Positions 2,020-48,873 of a DNA stretch of 53,727 nt are shown one piece after another. Origin of the DNA: Saccoglossus kowalevskii (Eukaryota > Hemichordata > Enteropneusta > Harrimaniidae); the NCBI RefSeq assembly GCF_000003605.2, contig NW_003133344.1:505735-559461 (forward strand), read 5' to 3'. The notes beneath the pieces are model-generated. The model did not search any database. It was not told the origin of the DNA and saw only the letters and a list, made by a program, of their open reading frames with translations. Both the position numbers and the translations under genes were made by a program. The number at the start of each line of letters is the position of its first letter. The first letter of the stretch is position 1.

Positions 2020-2199
2020 GACCTTAATATCAACTGTTTGAAGATAAACTCTACGAAAGACTTTGATCCAAATGACGTGTATTGCCCAATACCTTATGAG
2101 AAGGGATATTGTCTTGTACGCTACTTAGAACACCTAGCTGGAGGGTATGAACATTTCGAGAAGTTCTTGCGAGCTTATATTGATAAATTCAAGTTTAAG
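2020..2199 (+). CDS. RNPEP: Aminopeptidase B-like exon with PYEKG motif
   Basis: The acceptor is TATACAG ending at 2019. The frame begins GAC CTT AAT and runs 60 codons to AAG, followed by GTACGT. It contains DPNDVYCPIPYEKG, then a helix (CLVRYLEHLAGG), and ends KFKFK. In LTA4 hydrolase numbering the two Tyr match 378 and 383. The Asp-375 position, part of DPD there, is Asn here. The last 15 nt of the exon are the start of a 54-bp tandem repeat, so the true exon end could be any of five equivalent donors. Confidence 0.92.
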
Positions 2200-5100
2200 G
2201 TACGTCTATTACCCATAAAGCATTGGTTTGCTATGTATAAATTCAAGTTTAAGGTACGTCTATTACCCATAAAGCATTGGTTTGCTATGTATAAATTCAA
2301 GTTTAAGGTACGTCTATTACCCATAAAGCATTGGTTTGCTATGTATAAATTCAAGTTTAAGGTACGTCTATTACCCATAAAGCATTGGTTTGCTATGTAT
2401 AAATTCAAGTTTAAGGTACGTCTATTACCCATAAAGCATTGGTTTGCTATGTATTTGGGGGACTGCAGATGAGCAGCTTTTGACGATTTACGAGCATATT
2501 TTGTAATTGGATTGGTGTTTATTGTTTGCTGATAATCACTGAATGTTACTATGCTAATTACTGTGATAATTATCAAAATGCACAGTGTAAAACAGTTGTA
2601 GACAACTTTGCATGATTGTCACTCGAACAACATGTACTCTCATCTAACGATTTGCCATTCCATATAATGACTGAATTGTTTACACACTACACAACTCAGT
2701 TTTTAAATCTCGAAGATTATATTTACGATCAATTACGCCGGGTTGTTTCATCTGATAATTACAGATAATATAACATACAGCTTTTTTGTTTTATTATCGA
2801 AAAATAATGTATTATCACACTATGCGCTACCGAGTGGCCAGCACATATAATTCAAAAAGCAATTTTTATATAATTCAGCAAAACATCTTCTGAATATATT
2901 ATTCTTACATACAACGAAACTAGGTGATGTTATACATTCAAGAACATTCACTGCATATAATAACAATTATGAGACACTATAAAACTAATAAATTGTGGAA
3001 TGTGAAGATAATGTAGGCAATAATGATATGCTTAACATTTTTAGAGTGTAAATGGGCAAGATATATTGGACTACTTCCTTGATTATTTCCCTCATTACCG
3101 AAGACAGGAAATAGAAAACAGGTAACACGATGTAATGACAAGGAATATGTCGAAATAACACTTCCTGCTCTTTGAAAATTACGTGTTCTGAATTAAGATG
3201 AATTAAAGTTAACACGTTTAAATGCTTGAATTGAATATTATTCTTCACATGGTACACTAGGTGCAGATGTTCATTTCATGACGGTACAATACAATATTTT
3301 TTTATTGTATAATAAAACTATAAATCTGTGCTCTAATAGGAAAGATTACGAATTCGATAAATGGTTGAATAATCCGGGATGGCCACCATATGTACCCGAT
3401 TTGTCGGCAGGAAACGATTTAACAAAACCAGCTGAAATACTAGCAGCGATGTGGGCGGGAGAAGAAACACAGGTGGGTTGATAAGAACTGCTGGAGTTAT
3501 TAGCTGGTAGGTAGTTTCTTAACTAGTAGAATTAGCTTCTGGATAACAGAGATGTACTAACAGATATATGGTCTTAACATGCACAGTTGTGAAAGGTGCA
3601 CAGGTAAATAAACTAAATACGCTAAGTAATAGCACTATACAAAAAGATATGCAGGCAGATTTACTAAACTAGCTTAGTTAATATAATTATTTTGAACAGG
3701 AGGTGATACACTGGTGGCCCCTCAAGCCATCAGAGTTAATAGATTTATTCTAGACAAGCGAAGATGTACAGAAAGTATGATGAACGAGTTGTAGGTAAAT
3801 ATAGTCTGGACAGGAGAAAATATACAGGTAAACAAATTATGCTAATTGAGGTATTTTAGAAAGAAAAGACACAAAACAGGTTGACTAAATCAGTTGCGGT
3901 AATATCAGTAGTTTGGATAGGAAAGAAATACAAACGCTTGTTGAGTAAACCAGCTATGTTAACAACGGTAGTCTGGGCAGGACAAACCCAACTTTGTTCA
4001 TAACAGTAGGCTGGACAGGAGAATATATGCAGGTAAGTTAACTAAACCAGTGATGTTAATTGAAGTATTCTAGACCAGAGATGTTGACGGAACCAGCTCA
4101 CTAAATGTTAATGGCTGCATTCTGGTCAGTTAAGAACAACTTTACAAACATCGCTAAAGGTTGGCAGTTATTGAATATTATTTAGATACCACTGGTAAGA
4201 GCTGATACAATTGCAATGACTTCGGTATTCTTTACATTATAAATAAACACACATTCATTTTTGTTTATTTTTTATTCCAGGGCAGCACGAAATTTTCTAA
4301 CGACATTACCAATTGGCCAATTTACCAGGTGATCTTCTTTCTTGACAAGCTATTGGCTAAATTGAAACTACCAGATGGAACAATTCAGCAGATAAACGAG
4401 AAATATCCAACGATATCACAGAGCCAGAATGCAGAGGTTAGTGTTCTTATAGCCAATTATCCATTTAATGATCATGACTGAATCTTATATGACACTTTCT
4501 GAAAAGTGTTTTCCTTTAACAATATTACTTATGATTTCAGGTAAGATTTCGATGGTCTTTATTAACGCTAAAATATAGCTTCACAGAGGACTACCCCAAT
4601 GTCAGAAACTTCCTAGAGTGTCAAGGTACAAACAATATGGAATATAAATATTATTATTCACACCTTATTTGTCACACCTTCATAATTGTTAATTATTTGT
4701 AATCAGCTGAATACTGAACTTAAAACGTATTAACGTCACTAAAAGTTTTCCAGTCGTAAATATCATGTCTGGTTTTTTAAAGAAAATGCTTTGTCACAGA
4801 ATAATAGTCTGTTAAAAGTGCCAAGTATGAAATAATTTGGGGACAAAAAACAAACCTGCATAGAAATCGGAATAATAGGTTTTTTTGATTATCGGAGACG
4901 CATTTCAATGGACTTGATTACGGACAATGCATGACGTAAATTTCACCAGGAAATTCTGCAGTGTGCTTTCGCAATCGCGGACTTAGTCATTTTTACAAGG
5001 TTCGCCATTTTTGATGTCACGTGATAATTATGTAAACAATAACTGTCCAGTTTGTGCAAACTTGTACGTCTATACTTAGTCTTTTGAAATATATAAGCTA

Positions 5101-6670
5101 AATTACTGTTCTGAACGAGACAACAGACAGAGAATGTTTTATTCGAAACCGTCACAAAACCCTTCTCGCTACCTTAAAACGGGGAGTGTGGTGTAATACT
5201 TTCTTCATCATACATGGTTTCACCGATCTTGATTTAATGTAGATAAATAAAGATGATTAGTTCGGAACCAGTTGCGTGAGCGATACAAAGACATGCAAGC
5301 TCTCAGTCAGAAGTCTATGGAACACTTCATAGTTTATGTATATGCTCAGTTTTTGAAAACAAAAATGCAATTGTGTTGATCAGAATAAATTATATTTTCA
5401 GTACAGTAAATCAGTCATGAATTTGGAAAGGTATATGCTTTTTCGTCGCAATTTATTCCAGTTAAAAAATCAATGCAATAACTGGGTAGGTATCGATACA
5501 AAGTAATGGTCTGTTACAAACAAACAATGTGATGCAAGAGTTTACGTTGTTCAGTTTCCCACCTCCGCAAACTGTTTTTGTTCTCAGTCAACATTGGAAC
5601 GTAGCCCAGAAATAACGTTGTCGACCAGTGAACATAAATATTGTTATGAACAACATTAAAGCACACCGTAGCTCAGTTTTTTTTAGCGTGAACGTGTGTA
5701 GTTTTGCGAATCATCAATTATAGTATTAGATTATAGTGCGAATACGAACATTCCAGTTATGATGATAAATCGTAATCTTCAGAGTTTTAATACCGAGTAA
5801 ATCTTAGCGTATTCTTTTCTCCGGATCAGGGCATTTTATGTTATTCCGAAAGCAGCAAATCAAATGTGCAGTCAACGTAAATGTTCTGTAATCATCAATC
5901 AATATTGTTGAACTGGAAATGTACAATATCCTTGTATTGCGTACCACTGAAATATGAGAGAGAAAGAGAGTACAGGCGCTCTCAGCAAAAACATTGTACA
6001 TATGTGTTTGAACTGAAATATGCAATACACGTGAAACTATAGATTATGCAAAGATATCTCGAATGTGTTATATCAACCTATGTGTTTTCATAACTACGTT
6101 CCTTGAAGATAATTGCATTAAGACTTACTTTATGAAAATGGACCATGTAAAGAGAACACGTCCTGTAAACTGGGTTTACGATTTATATATAGCATGGTTT
6201 TTATATTTATTACCACAAACGAATTACTCATTATCATATCAATAACTATTACGTCAAAATTATGTTTATTAGTTAAAATTCCATCAACACATGTGCCCGA
6301 GTTTTTAACATTACTAAATGGAAATCATAATTAAGTATGTAAATCCTATGGACAAATTATGGTTGGTTGATAATGTCGTAGCAGAAGATTCCACCAACTT
6401 CAGGCGAATAAGAGCACATCTGCTAATCTTAAATTATTTCGCTGCAAACACACAGAGACATGAATAACTTTTTATTTTTTCTCGATTCAAAGGATATCAT
6501 TATTTGTTTTACTTCTAGGGAAACAACTTTATACAACTCCCTTGTATCAAGCTATGATCGACGGAAGTGACGTGACCAGAAAAATGGCGCATGATGTCTT
6601 TGAATCTTCAAAGGAAAAAATGCACTTCACCGTCCGAAGATATGTCGAGGATTTACTTTCTAAATCATAA
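2020..6670 (+). CDS. RNPEP: Aminopeptidase B-like M1 metallopeptidase, C-terminal six exons (partial)
   Basis: This is the 3' part of an M1-family aminopeptidase. Aminopeptidase B removes N-terminal Arg/Lys from peptides and is related to leukotriene A4 hydrolase. Exons: 2020-2199, 2700-2764, 3340-3472, 4281-4436, 4541-4625 and 6519-6670, together 771 nt or 256 residues plus TAA. Phases agree across all joins. The first exon holds the PYEKG segment, whose Tyr is the transition-state tyrosine of M1 enzymes. Exon 3 has EFDKWLNNPGWPPYVPDLS and the last exon starts GKQLYTTPLYQAM, both closer to aminopeptidase B than to LTA4 hydrolase. Exons 4-6 form the helical C-terminal domain. The zinc motif HEXXH-X18-E and the N-terminus lie upstream of the window. 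AATAAA occurs downstream near 7225 and 7313. Oddities are the duplicated donor after exon 1 and a non-GT donor after exon 2. RNPEPL1-type paralogues are the main alternative identity. Confidence 0.9.
2185..2454 (+). repeat. 54-bp x5 perfect tandem repeat spanning a splice donor
   Basis: Five identical copies start at 2185, 2239, 2293, 2347 and 2401. Each consists of the last 15 nt of the exon (codons KFKFK) plus the first 39 nt of the intron beginning GTACGTCTAT. The unit is 18 codons long and has no stop in this frame, so each copy offers the same donor in the same phase. Using a later donor would insert 18 residues per copy. Reading past the last copy hits TGA at 2470. I see no difference between copies, which implies recent amplification, homogenisation or an assembly effect. 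Confidence 0.98.
2700..2764 (+). CDS. RNPEP: Aminopeptidase B-like exon 2 (weak donor)
   Basis: The acceptor is ACAACTCAG ending at 2699. Frame 0 reads FLNLEDYIYDQLRR and continues VVSSDNY. This fills the segment between FKF(K/R) and the EFD(K/R)W block that other family members have, at a length within a few residues of theirs. If the exon ends at 2764 it leaves two bases (AG), which join the single G at the start of the next exon to give Arg. The bases after 2764 are ATAATA rather than GT. The in-exon GT donors at 2742 and 2745 would put the next exon out of frame. Confidence 0.6.
3340..3472 (+). CDS. RNPEP: Aminopeptidase B-like exon 3 (EFDKW...PGWPPY)
   Basis: The acceptor is TCTAATAG at 3339 and the donor CAG/GTGGGT at 3473. 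One base plus 44 codons. It encodes KDYEFDKWLNNPGWPP, then YVPDLSAGNDLTKPAEILA and MWAGEE. This is the best-conserved linker between the catalytic and C-terminal helical domains, and the residues most clearly pointing to aminopeptidase B. Confidence 0.93.
4281..4436 (+). CDS. RNPEP: Aminopeptidase B-like exon 4
   Basis: The acceptor is TTTTATTCCAG at 4280 and the donor GCAGAG/GTTAGT at 4437. There are 52 codons, phase 0 at both ends. It encodes part of the C-terminal helical domain, with WPIYQVIFFLDKLLAKL matching the family's W-x-x-YQ-x-x-(Y/F)FLDK helix and YPTISQSQNAE matching the (Y/T)PSIS-x-(A/S)xNAE turn. Confidence 0.92.
4541..4625 (+). CDS. RNPEP: Aminopeptidase B-like exon 5
   Basis: The acceptor is ATGATTTCAG at 4540 and the donor CAAG/GTACAA at 4626. 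There are 28 codons plus one base. It encodes VRFRWSLLTLKYSFTED and ends NFLECQ, corresponding to the (L/I)R(L/F)RW helix of the family. The single trailing G combines with GG of the last exon to make Gly. Confidence 0.92.
4626..6518 (+). other. Last intron of the aminopeptidase gene
   Basis: About 1.9 kb from GTACAA to TTACTTCTAG. I see no protein-like open frame with splice signals inside. Short open frames on both strands have no recognisable domain. It includes one TCACGTGA E-box palindrome at 5021-5028. Confidence 0.7.
6519..6670 (+). CDS. RNPEP: Aminopeptidase B-like terminal exon
   Basis: The acceptor is GTTTTACTTCTAG at 6518. Two bases complete a Gly codon, then 49 codons and TAA at 6668-6670. 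It reads KQLYTTPLYQAMIDGSDV, followed by a charged amphipathic helix ending VEDLLSKS. This matches the usual end of aminopeptidase B in position and length, so the C-terminus is complete. Confidence 0.93.
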
Positions 6671-14125: not shown

Positions 14126-14175
14126 NNNNNNNNNNNNNNNNNNNNNNNNNNNNNNNNNNNNNNNNNNNNNNNNNN
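14126..14175. other. Assembly gap (50 N)
   Basis: Fifty N characters; the real distance is unknown. Confidence 1.
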
Positions 14176-20550: not shown

Positions 20551-22014
20551 CCACACGCAATCACATAATGATTACCTGAATGGGTCAGTTTTCACGGCAA
20601 TGGTGCAATCAGTTTTCCTATGATTTTTCAAGCGGATGAATATAATGTATGATATATCTTCTTAATTGCTTATTCCGAAACTTTTAAAAACATACTCAAC
20701 AAATACAAAGTAAGTAACTTCGTGCGAGAAGCTGTGACTCATAATGGTTTATACGAACTTTCGTCTCTAGTCATTGAATAATATTTCCGTATACACTGTT
20801 TTCATGAAAAGTTTTTTGTTAGGCTACCACTCGCCCGTAAAAACAAACATTAGGTAACAAATCCACTCAAAAATCATAATACATATAAAAGTTGTTCTTA
20901 CGAGGGCCATTGCGAGCAATTCAAGGTCGTTACAAGCCACGCTATAAATCAGTATTACAGTACATAACCTCGTATTACGTGCACGTACGTAATGTGTGAG
21001 CGTCAGACACGTAGTAAACAACATCACTAGTTGTTGAGGCATAACCAAACACGGAGCATAGTAAAGTGGAGTTGTCAACAAGATTAAATTCCCGAGTGTA
21101 CCAATGACAGGGAATGTTATTCAGCGTAGTAAGATGATAGAGCCGACCCGATAAATGCCAAAACAATTTTAGAACTTACGAGATAAGAGGAAATCATACA
21201 TGACCAATATCGATTGGCCAATGAGATCGTAGCATTTCACATATATATATACTAAACCGGGAACATTTGTTTATGGTTTTACGTCATGTACAATTTATAA
21301 AGCTCATCACATTCAATTTAAGACAAATCTTATTACGCACTATAAAAACGTTTTGAAAGACACTATAACAATTGCTTTATTTTATTTCACATCGTTTCCA
21401 TGCACGATTTAACCAATTAGATTCTTCTGTTGTGTTCATGACGTCGTGACTGGGGTCGCTGACATACACGTTTCTGCCCTTGCTTGATGACTGCAAATAA
21501 ACGCGTTACGGAAGCCGAGATGAAGTAAACATATTCCGCCAACTACTACGCTAATAACATTATTCCGAGTAAACCAGTGTTTTATTCACTCTACATAGAC
21601 GCCAACACTTGTCAACAACAGTTCTAGCACAGCAGTAATATAAAAATATACCCCCATTATACGGTAAAACACATGCAAGCTTACTACATTGATGCCTAAC
21701 ATTCTATTTATATTAATTATGTAAAAAATAATAAAACAAAAAATTAATTAATTATCACTTGAAACAGAATAAATTTTGTATATTTTATTCGTCATATGCG
21801 GGGGTGTTAATGACTGGAAAATGGTAAATTATTTAACTGTGTAGTACCAAATACTGGAAACTATTTAGTGTTAAAACAAGCCTACTAATTGCCATTATTG
21901 TATTTCCCCCTATATATTTGTTTTCAGTGATTATTCATTTCATTTTCCAACGTCACGAAATTTGTTTATCTGCGCACACAAACGCGATATTTCCCACTCC
22001 CACTATAATATATT

Positions 22015-22745
22015 TCACTTTGTAGTACCATGTGTGTTCATTGAGGTACTGTTATGTATTGCTACGCAACACTAAATTATTACATAGTACTGAGCAATTC
22101 TGTACGTGCGTCCAATAGGTTACTACTACGTAATATCATTTACCACAGAAATAGTACGTAATACCGTACTCTGTAATACCATATAACACTGTACAATACT
22201 ATATGTGTTCAACAGGCTATTTGTAATAGTACATAATAATGTGCTTCATTATGTGTGTTCAATAGGTTATTACTCTATAATACTGTTACACAAAATCGTC
22301 TGTTATAATACAGTAACACTGTTACTACTATGTAATACCAGGTAATGAAATCGTATTTAGTACTACGCAGTAGTTCGTAACAATGTACAATACCATGTGT
22401 GTTCCATAGGTTACTACTATATATTACAATGTAACACTAAATTAGTACGAATACTGTGTAATACTACTTGCGTTCAATAGGCTATTTCTCTGTAATAACA
22501 TGTAACACTTGAATCGTATATAAACTGTAGAAAACCACATGTGTTCAATAGCTTATTACTCTGTAATACTATGTAATACTTGAATCGTAAGTAATAGTAC
22601 GTAACGCTGTACAAAACAATGTGTATCGAATATGATATTTACAGTATAATACTTCATAACACTAAAATCGTACGTAACACAGTGCAATAAAATCGTATGT
22701 AGTAATACGTAATCATACGTAACCCTGTACAATACTACGCAATAT
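22015..22745. repeat. Degenerate GTAATAC/TGTGTTCAATAGG repeat region
   Basis: A segment like TGTGTTCAATAGGTTATTACT recurs at about 22031, 22106, 22203, 22252, 22395, 22466, 22541 and 22621, with irregular spacing of roughly 50-140 bp. The intervening sequence is built from GTAATACTATGTAACACT-like words. It looks like an old, decayed tandem array. No open frame persists. Confidence 0.7.
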
Positions 22746-25850: not shown

Positions 25851-26710
25851 TTAGACCCAATCATCACATACACAAACATATTCATTATATATGTAGACCT
25901 ATAATCACATATATATGTAGATCTAGTCGCCACATACAAAGACCTAGTCATCACGTATGTAGACCTATAACCACATACGTTGGTTAATTCGTCACATATG
26001 CAGATCTATTCGTTACATATGTAACCCTATTCATCACATATGTAACCCTATTCGTCACATGCAGACATATCCGTCACATGTGTAGACCCATTCGTCACAT
26101 GTGCAGACCCATTCGTCACATACGTAGACCTAGTCGTCACATATGTAGACCTAGTCGTCACATATGTAGACCTAGTTGTCACATATGCAGACCTATCCGT
26201 TACATGTGTAAACCTATTCCTAACATATATAGACCCATTCGTCACATTTGTAGACCCATTCGTCACATATGTAGACCCATTCGTCACACGTGTAGACCTA
26301 GTCGTCATATGTATAGACCTAGTCGTCACATATGTAGATCTAGTCGTCACATATGCAGACCTATTTGTCTCATGTGTAGACATATTCGTCACATATATAG
26401 ACCTATTCGTCACATGTGTAGACCCATTCGTCACATATGTAGATCCATTCGTCACATGCGTAGACCTAGTCGTCACATGTGTAGACCTAGTCGTCACATA
26501 TGTAGACCTAGTCGTCATATATGTAATCCTATTCGTCACATATGTAGACCTATTCGTCATATATGCAGACCTATCCGTTTCATGTGTAGACCCATTCATC
26601 ACATATGTAGACCTACCTGTCACATGTGTAGACCTAGTCGTCACTTATGTAAACCTAGTCGTCACATATGTGGACCTAGTCGTCACATATGCATACCTAT
26701 TCATCACGTA
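25850..26710. repeat. 21-bp minisatellite (about 40 copies)
   Basis: Period 21, for example TAGTCGTCACATATGTAGACC, with alternating CCTAGTCGTC / CCTATTCGTC / CCCATTCGTC variants. Because 21 is a multiple of three and stops are rare in two frames, long heptad-repeat open frames appear on both strands (about 226 and 198 codons). They are by-products of the repeat. The first copies (25850-26000) are more degenerate. Confidence 0.97.
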
Positions 26711-27345
26711 ACTAGACATAACATCAACATATACAGACATAGTCCTCCCATAAGTTGACATAACAATCACATAAAATACCTAGTCGTCCCATAAGTAGAC
26801 ATAACTATCACATATATAGATCTAGTCGTCCCATAACTGGGCATAACCATCACATATATAGACCTAGTCGTCACATAAGTAGACATAACCATCACATATA
26901 GACCGAGTCGTCACATAAGTGGACATAACCATCATATAGACCTAGTCGTCACATAACTAGACATAACCATCACATATCTGGACCAAGTCGTCTCATAAGT
27001 AGGCATAACCATCACATATATAGACCTAGTCGTCACATAATTAGACATAACCATCTCATATATAGACCGAGTTGTCACATAAATAGACATAACCATCACA
27101 TATGTAGACCGAGTCGTCACATAAGTAGACGTAGCCATTATATATATAGACCTAGTCGTCACATAAGTAGACATAATCATCACATATAGACCTAGTCGTC
27201 ACATAAGTAGACATAACCATCACATATAGACCTAGTCGTCACATAAGTAGACATAACCATCACATATAGACCCAGTCGTCACATAAGTAGACATAACCAT
27301 CACATATAAAGACCTAGTTGTCACATAATAAGACTTAGCTATCAC
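26711..27345. repeat. 42/40-bp dimeric minisatellite derived from the 21-bp array
   Basis: Two diverged 21-mers alternate: CCTAGTCGTCACATAAGTAG and ACATAACCATCACATATATAG, giving a 42-bp unit. From about 27170 to 27310 the unit has lost one TA (CACATATAG) and becomes a nearly perfect 40-bp repeat, the most homogeneous part. The array decays after 27345. Confidence 0.95.
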
Positions 27346-28484
27346 AGACCAAGACGTCAGATATGCGCACCTAATGGTTACATGTATTTCAGCCTAATCG
27401 CCAGAAGTATAAACACAGTCACATATGTAGAATTAGTCATTGTATATACATAGACATAGTAGTACATGTAGGCACGTCCATTGCATGTTCATACTACTTC
27501 GCCTCTGCGCGTGTTGCACTAGAGATGTTTGATTCACTCTCAAGCACAAAAGTTTCCTAACGAAATTATGTTCAACCATTGTGATCCCACAGGACACGCG
27601 ATTGCGTTTTTATTTTGTAATTTCCACTTAAAGTCAAGCAGTGACGTGACATAGACGTCGCTAGTCGAAAGATTCAGTGTGATGAAGACTACAGGGACGA
27701 TGACTGAAAGGATGTTAAATAAAAGAGCACTTGTGGGTATATTTCTTCTTTTTTAACATCAGAAGTGGTTAACACGTGACTATGATTGACAGGAGCACTA
27801 AGCACGTTTTACTATTCATTTAAAAAAAAAATCACAGGCACATGAGATACTCTGGGTTTAATATTTGCTCAACTAACATTCACGCTCTTCCGCAAACAAT
27901 GTTACAACCAACAACACTGACAGCTGCACAACCTCTGTGAAGCTACCTATAGTTTGCAAATGACCAGCCCAAGAATTTGTAAAATTTAAATGTTCACATA
28001 TACGTTGTGTACAATTAATGTCCAACGAATAAAAGGATGTGTGGTAACACCACAATACCATACACAATGTTACATATGAGGTTGATGCCGATCTGGGTAT
28101 ACTGATGTATAATTTATAATCACATTCTCCCGAATCATATTGCAAACAAATAATAATAATGATGGATTAACAAAAAAACAAACAAGCAAAAAACTGTACC
28201 CAACGTCACGGAAGCCATATACCAACAAAACTATAGTACGAATTGTTTTTTTGGTAACATATATAGCCACTTTAATTTGTAAACAAATACTGATTTAAAA
28301 ATACTGTTGTCGATGATTTATATTGTTGATAATCAGTACTATCGTCGAACTGCGTGTTTGGACCTTAATGTTGCCTTGAGTATGTTAGTGTCCAAGTCGT
28401 GTATATGGAATATATGGTGCCTGAAAGATGACACGATTATATATTATATACATACAACGGAATATTTTTACCATATCTTTGCAG
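27346..28484. other. Spacer after the array
   Basis: Degenerate remnants of the array to about 27480, then no supported coding sequence. Minus-strand frames at 27873-28270 lack features. Confidence 0.5.
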
Positions 28485-29220: not shown

Positions 29221-29270
29221 NNNNNNNNNNNNNNNNNNNNNNNNNNNNNNNNNNNNNNNNNNNNNNNNNN
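29221..29270. other. Assembly gap (50 N)
   Basis: Fifty N characters; the true gap size is unknown. Confidence 1.
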
Positions 29271-39590: not shown

Positions 39591-40795
39591 AGTGGCATGC
39601 CCTGTTACGCTGTCAATTTCATGTTTTTCTATGTCGTGTAATGCTATGTCATGTCATGTTACGCTGTCATTTCATGTTTTTCTATGTCGTGTAATGCTAT
39701 GTCATGTTATGTTACGCTGTCATTTCATGTTTGCCTATGTCATGTTATGTTATGTTGTAATTCATGTTTTCCTATGTCGTGCAATGCTATGTCATGTCAT
39801 GTTACGCTGTCATTTCATGTTTTTCTATGTCGTGTAATGCTATGTTATGTCATGTTACGCTGTCATTTCATGTTTTCCTATGTCGTGTAATGCTATGTCA
39901 TGTCATGTTACGCTGTCATTTCATGTTTTTCTATGTCGTGTAATGCTATGTCATGTCATGTTACGCTGTCATTTCATGTTTTTCTATGTCGTGTAATGCT
40001 ATGTCATGTTATGTTATGCTGTCATTTCATGTTGTCCTATGTCGTGCAATGCTATGTCATGTCATGTTACGNNNNNNNNNNNNNNNNNNNNNNNNNNNNN
40101 NNNNNNNNNNNNNNNNNNNNNTTTCTATGTCGTGTAATGCTATGTTATGTTCATGTTACGCTGTCATTTCATGTTTTCCTATGTCGTGTAATGCTATGTC
40201 ATGTCATGTTACGCTGTCATTTCATGTTTTTCTATGTCGTGTAATGCTATGTCATGTCATGTTACGCTGTCATTTCATGTTTTTCTATGTCGTGTAATGC
40301 TATGTCATGTTATGTTATGCTGTCATTTCATGTTGTCCTATGTCGTGCAATGCTATGTCATGTCATGTTACGCTGTCATTTCATGTTTTTCTATGTCGTG
40401 TATTGCTATGTCATGTTACGCTGTCATTGTATGTTTTTCTATGTCGTGCAATGCGATGTCATGTTATGTTACGCTGTCATTTCATGTTCTCCTATGTCGT
40501 GTAATGCTATGTCATGTTATGTTATGTTGTAATTTCATGTTTTCTTATGTCGTGTAATGCTATGTCATATCATGTTACGCTGTCATTTCATGTTTTCCTA
40601 TGTCGTGAAATGCTATGTCATATCATGTTACGCTGTCATTTCATGTTTTTCTATGTCATTTAATGCTATGTCATGTTATATTACGCTGTCATTTCATATT
40701 TTTCTATGTCGTGTAATGCTATATCATGTTATGTTTTAATTTCATGTTTTCCTATATCGTGTAATGCTATGTTATGTCATGTCATGCCATAAATA
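39591..40795. repeat. 53-bp minisatellite interrupted by an assembly gap
   Basis: Period 53, with unit parts ATGTCATGTCATGTTACGCT, GTCATTTCATGTTTTTCTAT and GTCGTGTAATGCT. About 22 copies are visible, with variants (TTTTC/TTTCC/TTGTCC and loss of CGCT). An internal ATGTC/ATGTT pentamer repeat gives units of slightly different length. The Cys/Met-rich open frames in all three plus-strand frames are by-products. The N block inside means the real copy number is unknown. Confidence 0.97.
40072..40121. other. Assembly gap (50 N) inside the 53-bp array
   Basis: Fifty N characters inside a tandem array, suggesting the assembler could not resolve or collapsed copies. Confidence 1.
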
Positions 40796-46160: not shown

Positions 46161-46325
46161 TCAATAACACAAATAATCCTTTAAATACTTGGGTGCCTGA
46201 ACTGTACGTTTTGCTCTATCTGGTGGTTCAGGTAAGGTTGCATCACTTTCACATTCAGAAGTTACATCACATGAATTATCAGTGTCTTTATCGCTTTGTT
46301 GAGTTTCAGCTTTATCACTATCTGT
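46161..46325 (-). pseudogene. C-terminal tail of pol after the deletion
   Basis: In a frame different from the RNase H part, about 54 codons read SDKAETQQSDKDTDNS and later RAKRTVQAPKYLKDY before TGA at 46161. The Arg/Lys-RTVQAPKYLKDY type ending is the usual last segment of mag-like pol, normally several hundred residues after RNase H. Its position here shows that the integrase was lost. Confidence 0.75.
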
Positions 46326-46907
46326 CGGGTAGGGCAATTATTCCAATTTCCCAATGCTATGCATTCTCTAAGCTCAGTAATTTCCTCATCCTGTTCAGAC
46401 ACTCGTTCTATTAATCTTATTGGTATCGCATGTGGTGCCGCATATTCTGCTACATAACGAATGTATCCCTCCGTGTCATCACTATGTTCACTCTTATTAT
46501 TGTCAACTAGTCTAGACAGTGCATCTGCGATGTTCTTCGACCCAGGTATGTATTCCACAGTAAAGTTGTAGGGCTGTAAACGTAGAACCCAACGTTCAAT
46601 TCGGGCAGATGGCTTTGACTTATGTGAATATATCACCTTTAACGGCTGGTGGTCTGTTAACAGTTTAAATTCAATACCACATATTAAGTATAAATTGAAT
46701 CTCTTACAAGCCCAAACTATGGCAAGGGCCTCTCCTTTCTACATCTGACAGACTTCTACTGGCATAACACACAACTCTATTTTCACCGTTCTGTTTCTGT
46801 ATCAAGATTACGCCTAGTCCTACTGGACTAGCATCTGTAATCACTGTAGTTTCAGCATTCTGATCAAAGTAGGCTAAAGTCCGTGCATTAGCTAACTCAT
46901 TTTTCAA
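46262..46907 (-). pseudogene. RNase H region, split between two frames
   Basis: The first part (46704-46907) has the TDASPVGLG catalytic-Asp motif and ends in a frameshift near 46735, where the family has a conserved Glu-containing block. The second part (to about 46330) has LLTDHQPLK, WVLRLQPYNF and GSKNIADALSRL, the normal RNase H and connector end. The second frame then runs on past the deletion junction to 46262. Confidence 0.85.
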
Positions 46908-46955
46908 GCGGTCAAATGGGTGTTGTTGTTCGGTTTGCTATTCAAATTTGGTTCC

Positions 46956-48416
46956 TTAGCGTGTTAATTTGCGGAGTGGCTTGGCTACTGTGGCTAAGTT
47001 TGGTATATATCGGGCAGAGAAATTTACCAATTCCAGAAAACTTCTCACTTCTGTTGAATTCTCTGGTGCACGAGCATTTAAGACTTCTTCTACTTTTTCG
47101 GTAATTGGACGGATACCATGTCTAATCAGCATACTTCCCATGAATTTTAAATGAGACATTCGAAATACGCATTTCTCCGCATTCAGTGTCAGACCCTTTT
47201 CTTCAAAGCATTTCAGACCTTCAATTAATCTTTGATCATGGGTTTCATTGTCAGGAGCATGTATCACCACATCGTCAGATATATTTACGGCTCCATCACA
47301 TCCAGTCAATACTTGTTGTATGATGTGTTGGTACAGTTCTGGGGCAGAACTAATGCCAAACATCAGCCATTTATATCGGAACAAACCGTTATGTGTAGCA
47401 AATGTTGTGATACTTCTAGACGATTCCTCCAACTCGATCTTATGAAACCCCCACTTGAGGTCTAACTTTGTAAAGACCGTGCTTTGGTTCATGCTTTCTA
47501 ATATTTCATCTACGGTTGGTATCGGATGTCTCTCTCTGACTACTGCCTGATTTGCCTGACGCATATCTACACATAATTTAATCAATTCAGTCAGCTTGTC
47601 TTCTATTTTGCTTCTGAGGCTGAATGGTGTTCTCCGTGGTTTCTGTGCCACCGGTGGTATGTCTGGATCAATGTTGATCTTCGCCTGGTAATCATTCAAT
47701 TTTCCTAACCCATTAAAGCACTTAGGAAATTTATCACGCACATTTTGTGTGCCAATCATGTTTGCCTGCAGTCCAAGCTTCAACACTCCGAGCTCTTGTG
47801 CTGTTTTTCGTCCCAACAGTGAACGACCTTTGTCTTTAAATACGATAAATTCAGCATTTGTCATATTATTGGCAACTTGAGCAGTGGCTTGTAATTTCCC
47901 AAGGACTTCCAATGGCTTATCTGCTTCATAAGAATACAGCGACTGTGTTGACCTCTCAGCTTTACAGACAATTCCTTTTTGTTTCAAGGTAGACCATGTT
48001 GTTTCACAAATCACATTACATGTTGCTCCAGAATCAATGAGCATGTCTGAAATAACTACTCCACCCACCGTGACACTAATCACACCAGTGTCATTTGAGT
48101 TATTCTCTGGATGAACAGCAAATACATAGTCACCATTTGTCTGTACACAATACAATTTCTCTTTGTCTGAGTTTCCCTGTATACCAACTTTCTCTGCGTT
48201 ACCCTTGGTATGTTTCTTAGTCTTGCATACTACTGCAAAATGTCCTGTTAGATGACATTTGTTACAGTTCGCAGATCTTGCTGGGCATTCTCTATCCCTG
48301 GCGAAATGTCCCTCTTTACCACAACGATAACATTTCCTTTTCTCTCTTCCTGGCTTCTTTTGTGGCCTTTGACCTTTATGGACTTGGTTGACTTCACGTT
48401 TAAATTCACCTTCCAT
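46956..48416 (-). pseudogene. Zinc knuckle-protease-reverse transcriptase frame of the retrotransposon
   Basis: 486 codons. Residues 29-44 and 51-64 are two zinc knuckles (the first C-x2-C-x4-H-x6-C, the second C-x2-C-x4-H-x4-C). LIDSGAT at 126-132 is the aspartic protease site. RT motifs are LDL (318-320), LMFGISSAP (351-359) and ISDD (379-382), where the family often has (I/Y)ADD. Between residues about 280 and 282 the usual segment carrying the WVSP-type motif, about 30 residues, is missing without loss of frame. After KPLRKLTR a TAA ends the frame, and a TAG follows about 6 codons later where the family has sense codons. Confidence 0.93.
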
Positions 48417-48419
48417 AGT

Positions 48420-48873
48420 CTTTAATGAACATCAACTACTTCTAGGCCCGTGCTGTATCTTGCACCACTTTTAGGGTTAGGGATTTTCCCTTTTCTAGGA
48501 GCTTACGGCGCAACAATGACGACTTGCATTTATCTATAACTTGATCTCTGATTTGTTCATCAGTATTGTGAACTCACAATTTTGTGCTTGATGTTGCAGT
48601 CTTGAAATGAACTGATCTATAGTTTCACCCTCCTCTTGTTTCATTTGACGAAACACATGTCTCTCATATATTGCATTTAGCTGAGGTATGAAATACGCGT
48701 TCAATGTTCATAACGCTTGCAAGGCTCTCTTTTGGTTGTCATCTTTGACACCCTTTCCGACGATATAGAACTCGAACGCTTTCTTTCACCTTTTCCATCT
48801 AGTCGATACGCTAGTGGGGTCACTTTTGCAATCAAACGGCGGAAGGCTACAATATCAATATTTGAAGCCATCT
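48420..48873 (-). pseudogene. Broken gag remnant
   Basis: Starts MASNIDIVAFRRL after the primer site, shifts frame within about 30 codons, and later recovers a gag-like block with KCKSSLLRRKLLEKGKSL. A stop follows TARA just before the knuckle frame. Several lesions, so no functional Gag. Confidence 0.7.

Follow-up and report, generated by a model that had tools for sequence, protein, structure and literature searches.

A perfect five-copy tandem repeat over an exon-intron junction of a predicted M1 aminopeptidase gene, and a probable decayed counterpart in a downstream intron

Results

The DNA studied here (contig NW_003133344.1, positions 505,735 to 559,461; 53,727 nucleotides, called the window throughout) carries near its start, on the forward strand, six exons of what is, to judge by sequence similarity, an M1 aminopeptidase gene of the leukotriene A4 hydrolase (LTA4H)/aminopeptidase B type. 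The junction between the first of these exons, exon A, and its intron is covered by a 54-bp unit present in five identical tandem copies, which we call array A. A second and apparently decayed array, array C, spans the end of exon C and much of the intron behind it.

The exon partners were found by frame and by similarity to the family. Exon A (2020-2199, 180 bp, phase 0-0), preceded by ATACAG, rests on an open frame, splice sites, a Pfam Peptidase_M1 match and alignment with LTA4H; it joins exon B (3045-3121, 77 bp, phase 0 to 2, acceptor TTTTAG/AGT) in phase 0. Frame and LTA4H alignment identify exon B and also exon C (3340-3472, 133 bp), whose end was picked out in addition by the array scans described below. 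Exon D (4281-4436, 156 bp) is supported by frame, Pfam and LTA4H alignment, exon E (4541-4625, 85 bp) by frame and Pfam, and the last exon, F (6519-6670), by frame and by its match to the C-terminal end of Leuk-A4-hydro_C (profile positions 69-112, 1.7e-07). Joined together, exons A to F read openly to a TAA at 6668-6670. The product of exons A to E matches Peptidase_M1 (PF01433, 5.7e-12) followed by Leuk-A4-hydro_C (PF09127, 1.1e-12), and a PDB search with it returned 22 distinct sequences, with LTA4H at 1.8e-27. A reading of this DNA from its letters alone (the sequence-only reading) had placed the repeat at a genuine exon/intron junction of an aminopeptidase gene, and the profiles, structures and frames agree with it.

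The PYEKG of exon A presumably holds the M1 catalytic tyrosine, and the HEXXH zinc motif is presumably encoded in upstream exons, outside the window. The gene may resemble aminopeptidase B more than LTA4H. A pattern scan for bacterial or archaeal relatives gave 50 pattern matches, of which 0 were confirmed. That the gene is a pseudogene was considered and set aside, because all six exons found in the window keep an open frame and agree in phase, and family profiles match at both ends. Also rejected was an exon at about 2466-2520, just after array A, which bears a weak family resemblance by eye but has the wrong phase or contains stops; 3045-3121 fits instead.

Tandem Repeats Finder (TRF) reports array A at 2183-2454 on the forward strand, with a period of 54, 5.0 copies, 100% matches and no indels. 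A script comparing the sequence with itself at a lag of 54 found 218 identities in one unbroken run, and the 54-mers starting at 2185, 2239, 2293, 2347 and 2401 are letter-identical (n = 5), just as the sequence-only reading had placed them. Because the array measures 272 nt, or 5 x 54 + 2, its register is ambiguous by 2 nt, and the exon part of each unit, which had been put at 15 bases, comprises 15 to 17. No 14-mer of the unit was found outside the array on either strand of the window, and none of the other TRF rows of the window (28 rows in all) combines a period above 10 and more than 3 copies with 100% matches. A search for older copies of the unit beside the array saw none, the observed score being reached in 128/200 and 81/200 shuffles. 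Chance cannot account for a 54-mer repeated perfectly five times.

Each of the five copies carries one AAG/GTACGT donor (at 2200, 2254, 2308, 2362 and 2416), and all five are in phase 0. Since the unit is 54 bp long and open in the phase of the exon, each copy is a potential in-frame donor. This in-frame, stop-free property is less striking than the repeat itself: base composition, with a factor of 1/3 for a length divisible by three, gives it a probability of about 0.12. When the whole array is read through in the frame of exon A, the first in-frame stop is the TGA at 2470-2472. The equivalent donors and this stop are likewise as the sequence-only reading had them.

That reading had also raised the possibility of an assembly artefact, in which the real copy number differs and is perhaps one. 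Five letter-identical copies are what such an artefact could produce, and the assembly is imperfect at repeats, with a 50-N gap (40072-40121) inside a 53-bp array. The repeat numbers in lancelet PGBD5 differ between two genome versions, 2 versus 7 and 3 versus 6 (PMC3902484). Against this, array A is short and without any N, and other, longer arrays in the window, with units of 49 bp and 21 bp, were assembled; an error would also be likelier to alter the copy number than to create an array. We consider an artefact very unlikely.

Which of the five donors yields the normal enzyme was approached through homology. Residues 60 and 61 of the query, the end of exon A and the start of exon B, are aligned without a gap in the three printed alignments that we inspected, drawn from the 22 matched PDB sequences and all with LTA4H chains; counted on the alignment, the junction falls at K417/S418 of chain 1gw6_A. 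The Peptidase_M1 match crosses the same junction, with 62 residues (10-71) on 61 profile positions, and leaves no room for an insert of 18 residues. Ungapped alignments and a profile match over the junction imply that splicing from 2200-2201 yields the family's normal protein, and this donor is probably the ancestral one.

Each later donor inserts VRLLPIKHWFAMYKFKFK (18 residues) one more time. The products from donors 1 to 5 within the window are 260, 278, 296, 314 and 332 residues long, all open to the natural stop, which bears out the earlier count of 18 residues per donor. Searched by itself, the 18-residue unit matched nothing in the PDB up to E = 10, and in Pfam nothing passed the curated cut-off (best E 0.021).

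These products raise a rival explanation: that all five donors are used, whether stochastically or under control, so that the enzyme exists in forms with 0, 18, 36, 54 and 72 extra residues. A stochastic ladder of this kind is documented at the tandem AGGT sites of human UBC (PMC10809524), and the products in array A are all open. The donors, moreover, score equally. By a consensus weight table, each copy reaches 9.1 bits, compared with 6.9 for donor B, 9.9 for C, 7.6 for D and 3.7 for E. The predicted accessibility of the 9-mer is alike across the five (0.010 to 0.018); within the region, copy 1 ranks at the 39th percentile and copy 5 at the 32nd. In the isolated unit the donor sits inside a small predicted hairpin, GGUA/UACC (fold -6.2 kcal/mol), to which we give no weight. 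The five donors cannot be told apart by score or by predicted local structure. What speaks against such a ladder at this stage is the junction itself, where neither the three LTA4H alignments nor the profile match shows an insert.

The AG/GT at every unit boundary allows another possibility, that AAG/GT acts as both acceptor and donor, so that units leave recursively as introns of 54 to 216 nt; UBC again provides a precedent for such dual-specific sites (PMC10809524). The 20 nt before AAG, however, show no clear polypyrimidine tract, at 50% pyrimidine. Among the gene's own acceptors, those of exons A, B, C and E have only 55-60% and those of D and F 80-85%. Animal introns, moreover, are seldom as short as 54 nt. 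We regard this route as highly improbable; because its product is the same as that of the first donor, it would be invisible in mature mRNA.

The second array, which the sequence-only reading missed, lies at 3419-4140 on the forward strand, with a unit of about 58 bp made of the 3' end of exon C and its donor. It comprises one exonic copy, the last 54 nt of exon C (3419-3472), and nine intron stretches taken as copies, from 3660 onward. In between, at 3479-3659, our scans recognized no copy, though this segment may be part of the array as well. A repeat search in intron C brought out families of 15-43 nt, several at spacings of about 56-60. TRF at score 30 found nothing in 3330-4290; the copies are too diverged for it.

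A first scan of the window with a 58-nt consensus gave 39/58 for the end of exon C and 36-45 for seven copies, with 31 at the best unrelated place. The last 10 letters of that consensus, the donor part, had been added by eye and could flatter the result, so the scan was redone without them. For this we used a model built from the nine intron stretches, with the exon C letters left out. Its 48-nt consensus without the donor matches exon C at 32/48, as against 28/48 for the best of 107,360 placements, on both strands, outside 3400-4150. The intron stretches score 38, 38, 37, 36, 35, 31, 29 and 28, and the ninth, at 4084, which has an insertion, 22. When a 58-nt consensus was drawn up from the nine by strict majority, exon C scored 40/58, 7/9 copies 36-44 and the best place elsewhere 31/58; the weak copy at 3824 scores 31, no higher than that unrelated place, and the stretch at 4084 does not stand out in an ungapped scan.

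The comparison was also run in the converse direction. When the 58-mer at the end of exon C was placed at 107,340 positions, the copies at 3660 (37/58) and 3979 (33/58) ranked first and second; unrelated places and two further copies reached 30. A Smith-Waterman alignment of the end of exon C with its own intron scores 35, which 0/500 shuffles reached (maximum 33) and 0/200 in a second run (maximum 29). With nhmmer, exon C is the best match of the intron-only model once the copies that went into the model are set aside. In the frame of exon C the hand-completed consensus reads LTKPAMLIEVFWTGENIQ beside LTKPAEILAAMWAGEETQ. That array C is related to the end of exon C is well supported. Exon C aligns with the enzyme family, which makes it the likely source of the array; the age and history of the array are reconstructions.

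Array C also bears on the choice among donors in array A. One of its decayed copies contains a full-consensus decoy, CAG/GTAAGT (4033-4034, 12.6 bits), and a CAG/GTAAAT sits at 3604, where no copy was recognized. Any of the six downstream donors tested in intron C, if used, adds a stop after two residues; with the decoy at 4033, too, the mRNA would gain a stop. Where it is visible the gene still looks intact, so the splicing machinery of this species can probably disregard donor copies that lie downstream. This serves as indirect evidence for the first donor winning in array A too, and the coexistence of such decoys with an open gene, even at 4033, counts against use of all five donors there.

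We also asked how the other splice sites of the gene compare. No donor arrays were seen at D or E, where 59/200 and 150/200 shuffles reach the observed score, and no acceptor-side arrays at exons A to E (53 to 174 of 200 shuffles). The window as a whole is rich in minisatellites: we counted eight array clusters, not including the microsatellites of AT and CTGT, TRF rows that were short and low in copy number, or clusters with no more than two hits in the scan. If whole array spans, as estimated, are considered, 0.60 arrays are expected at five donors and the probability of two or more is 0.12; with one seed unit for each array, 0.04 are expected and P = 0.0008. Because both arrays were picked after looking, we claim no significant enrichment at donors.

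The surroundings of the gene hold several further repeats. The window starts inside a 49-bp minisatellite (2-1857, about 38 copies, 87%) that ends about 160 bp before exon A and whose unit has no AGGT on the forward strand. A large 21-bp minisatellite at 25913-27346 (68 copies, 72%) contains long open reading frames of 256, 221 and 198 residues, a trap for gene prediction. The 53-bp minisatellite broken by the gap at 40072-40121 extends over 39596-40787; two other 50-N gaps lie at 14126-14175 and 29221-29270. At 21999-22640, a self-similarity scan, read by eye, revealed diverged repeats of the GTAATAC / TGTGTTCAATAGG type that are outside the TRF table. On the reverse strand, 46265-48431 holds retroelement remains, with zinc knuckle, reverse transcriptase and RNase H profiles above cut-off in two open reading frames and a protease profile below its cut-off; we take the element to be Ty3/gypsy-like. 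Also on the reverse strand, a reading frame of 98 residues at 20824-21120 resembles receptor membrane segments by eye and has no Pfam match up to E = 0.1. Rfam gave 0 matches at the gathering threshold, and the GC content ranges from 0.309 to 0.403 across the window's 26 tiles of 2 kb. Lancelet genomes have a higher GC content, which hints weakly that the host is not a lancelet; the gene, with its introns, has the look of an animal gene.

Discussion

Tandem repeats over exon-intron boundaries are known in amphioxus as mirages, described in Adh3, the globin genes BflGb6 and BflGb9, troponin C and PGBD5 (PMC3087553, PMC3902484). Unit lengths run from 10 to 72 bp in Adh3 and from 150 to 160 bp in the globin genes, AG/GT is present in many copies, and two haplotypes with 6 versus 3 units are reported (PMC3087553); the same paper cites earlier work on somatic instability of the Adh3 mirage. 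In lancelet PGBD5, repeats of 60 bp and 108 bp lie at splice sites (PMC3902484). Array A fits this description in every structural feature that we examined. The units of 54 bp in array A and about 58 bp in array C are both within the reported range, and AG/GT occurs in many but not all copies, 5/5 in array A and 2/9 of the intron stretches of array C. Degenerate repeats inside an intron, as in array C, are also reported for mirages, where they are taken to support a model of intron origin (PMC3087553), and the mirage literature predicts them (PMC3087553, PMC3902484). In contrast to the amphioxus mirages, array A has units that are all identical and in frame, at 18 residues each, and the same gene holds both a young array and a decayed one.

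RT-PCR (reverse transcription PCR) on mirages suggests that regular splicing is undisturbed (PMC3087553), and the reports in general (PMC3087553, PMC3902484) speak in this way against a ladder of enzyme forms made from all five donors. Taking this together with the junction alignments and the decoys of intron C, we think such a ladder unlikely, in spite of the equal scores, the open products and the UBC precedent. Its boldest form would have all donors live, with 0 to 4 inserts between conserved M1 segments and an unstable copy number setting the height of the ladder, which would vary from one individual or cell to another; donors in such a genome would time and again seed minisatellites destined to turn into intron. 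This we find quite doubtful.

Other known systems resemble array A in part. In the human CBS gene, too, an exon-intron boundary (exon 13-intron 13) carries a variable number tandem repeat (VNTR), with a unit of 31 bp (Lievers et al. 2001, as cited in PMC1395315 and PMC5188458). It differs in the unit, which is not a multiple of three; it is also polymorphic, and in humans an association with enzyme activity is reported. PMC5188458 places it in non-coding sequence. Variable internal tandem repeats at exon-intron boundaries are a further human parallel (PMC2812944). The UBC sites share with array A tandem AG/GT motifs that keep the frame whichever is used, whereas the 228-nt repeats of UBC are the coding product and its sites act as acceptors as well as donors (PMC10809524). 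The units of array A, in contrast, derive from a junction and lie mostly in the intron. Rogers 1989, Zhuo 2007 and Gao and Lynch 2009 are reportedly listed under intron gain or modification by tandem duplication. In that process, too, duplicated splice signals change intron structure (PMC4974935, PMC2812944); unlike intron gain (PMC4974935), array A lengthens an existing intron downstream of its donor, and we claim no gained intron.

Overall, these comparisons lead us to favor, at a probability of about 0.72, the reading that array A is a young minisatellite of the mirage type, largely neutral and spliced out mostly from the first donor. The array would be a recent, minisatellite-like tandem expansion of the exon-intron boundary. 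Most transcripts would use the first, ancestral donor, the other copies leaving with the intron, and their removal in this way would make the array largely neutral. Later donors may be used at times, adding 18 residues per copy. Over time such arrays may decay within the intron and lengthen it, with intron C as the putative end state. Of the interpretations that the sequence-only reading had offered, neutral expansion is thus the one we prefer, and for a length-variable splice switch we found nothing in support: the three LTA4H alignments and the Pfam profile match show no insert, the 18-residue unit is unmatched in the PDB and, at the curated cut-off, in Pfam, and the donors are equal in local score and nearly so in predicted accessibility.

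Several observations weigh against the mirage-type reading. The donor in use is argued from sequence comparison, and later donors could well be used, because all five are strong for this gene (9.1 bits versus 3.7-9.9) and structure favors none. Only 2/5 donors tested have a clear array, with donor B borderline (9/200 shuffles reach the observed score). In array C, the copies were put in register by eye, identity is low (mean 54% between exon C and the nine copies, 55.5% between copies), CAG/GT is kept in only 2/9 intron stretches (3828 and 4033), and the nhmmer model gives exon C E = 2.8 in the window and 0.052 in a 1-kb region. Finally, the known mirages in the cited papers are all from lancelets.

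Repeats of this kind are already known; it is the pair of a young and a decayed array in one gene, more than a lone repeat, that is of interest. Array A sets up a natural competition among five 5' splice sites whose near surroundings are identical and whose positions differ, and because all five are in frame, the outcome could be read directly as a ladder of cDNAs. Together, arrays A and C may offer a before-and-after view of how minisatellites seeded at junctions lengthen introns, in line with the model proposed for mirages. If the host is not a lancelet, the range of mirages described in the cited papers would be widened.
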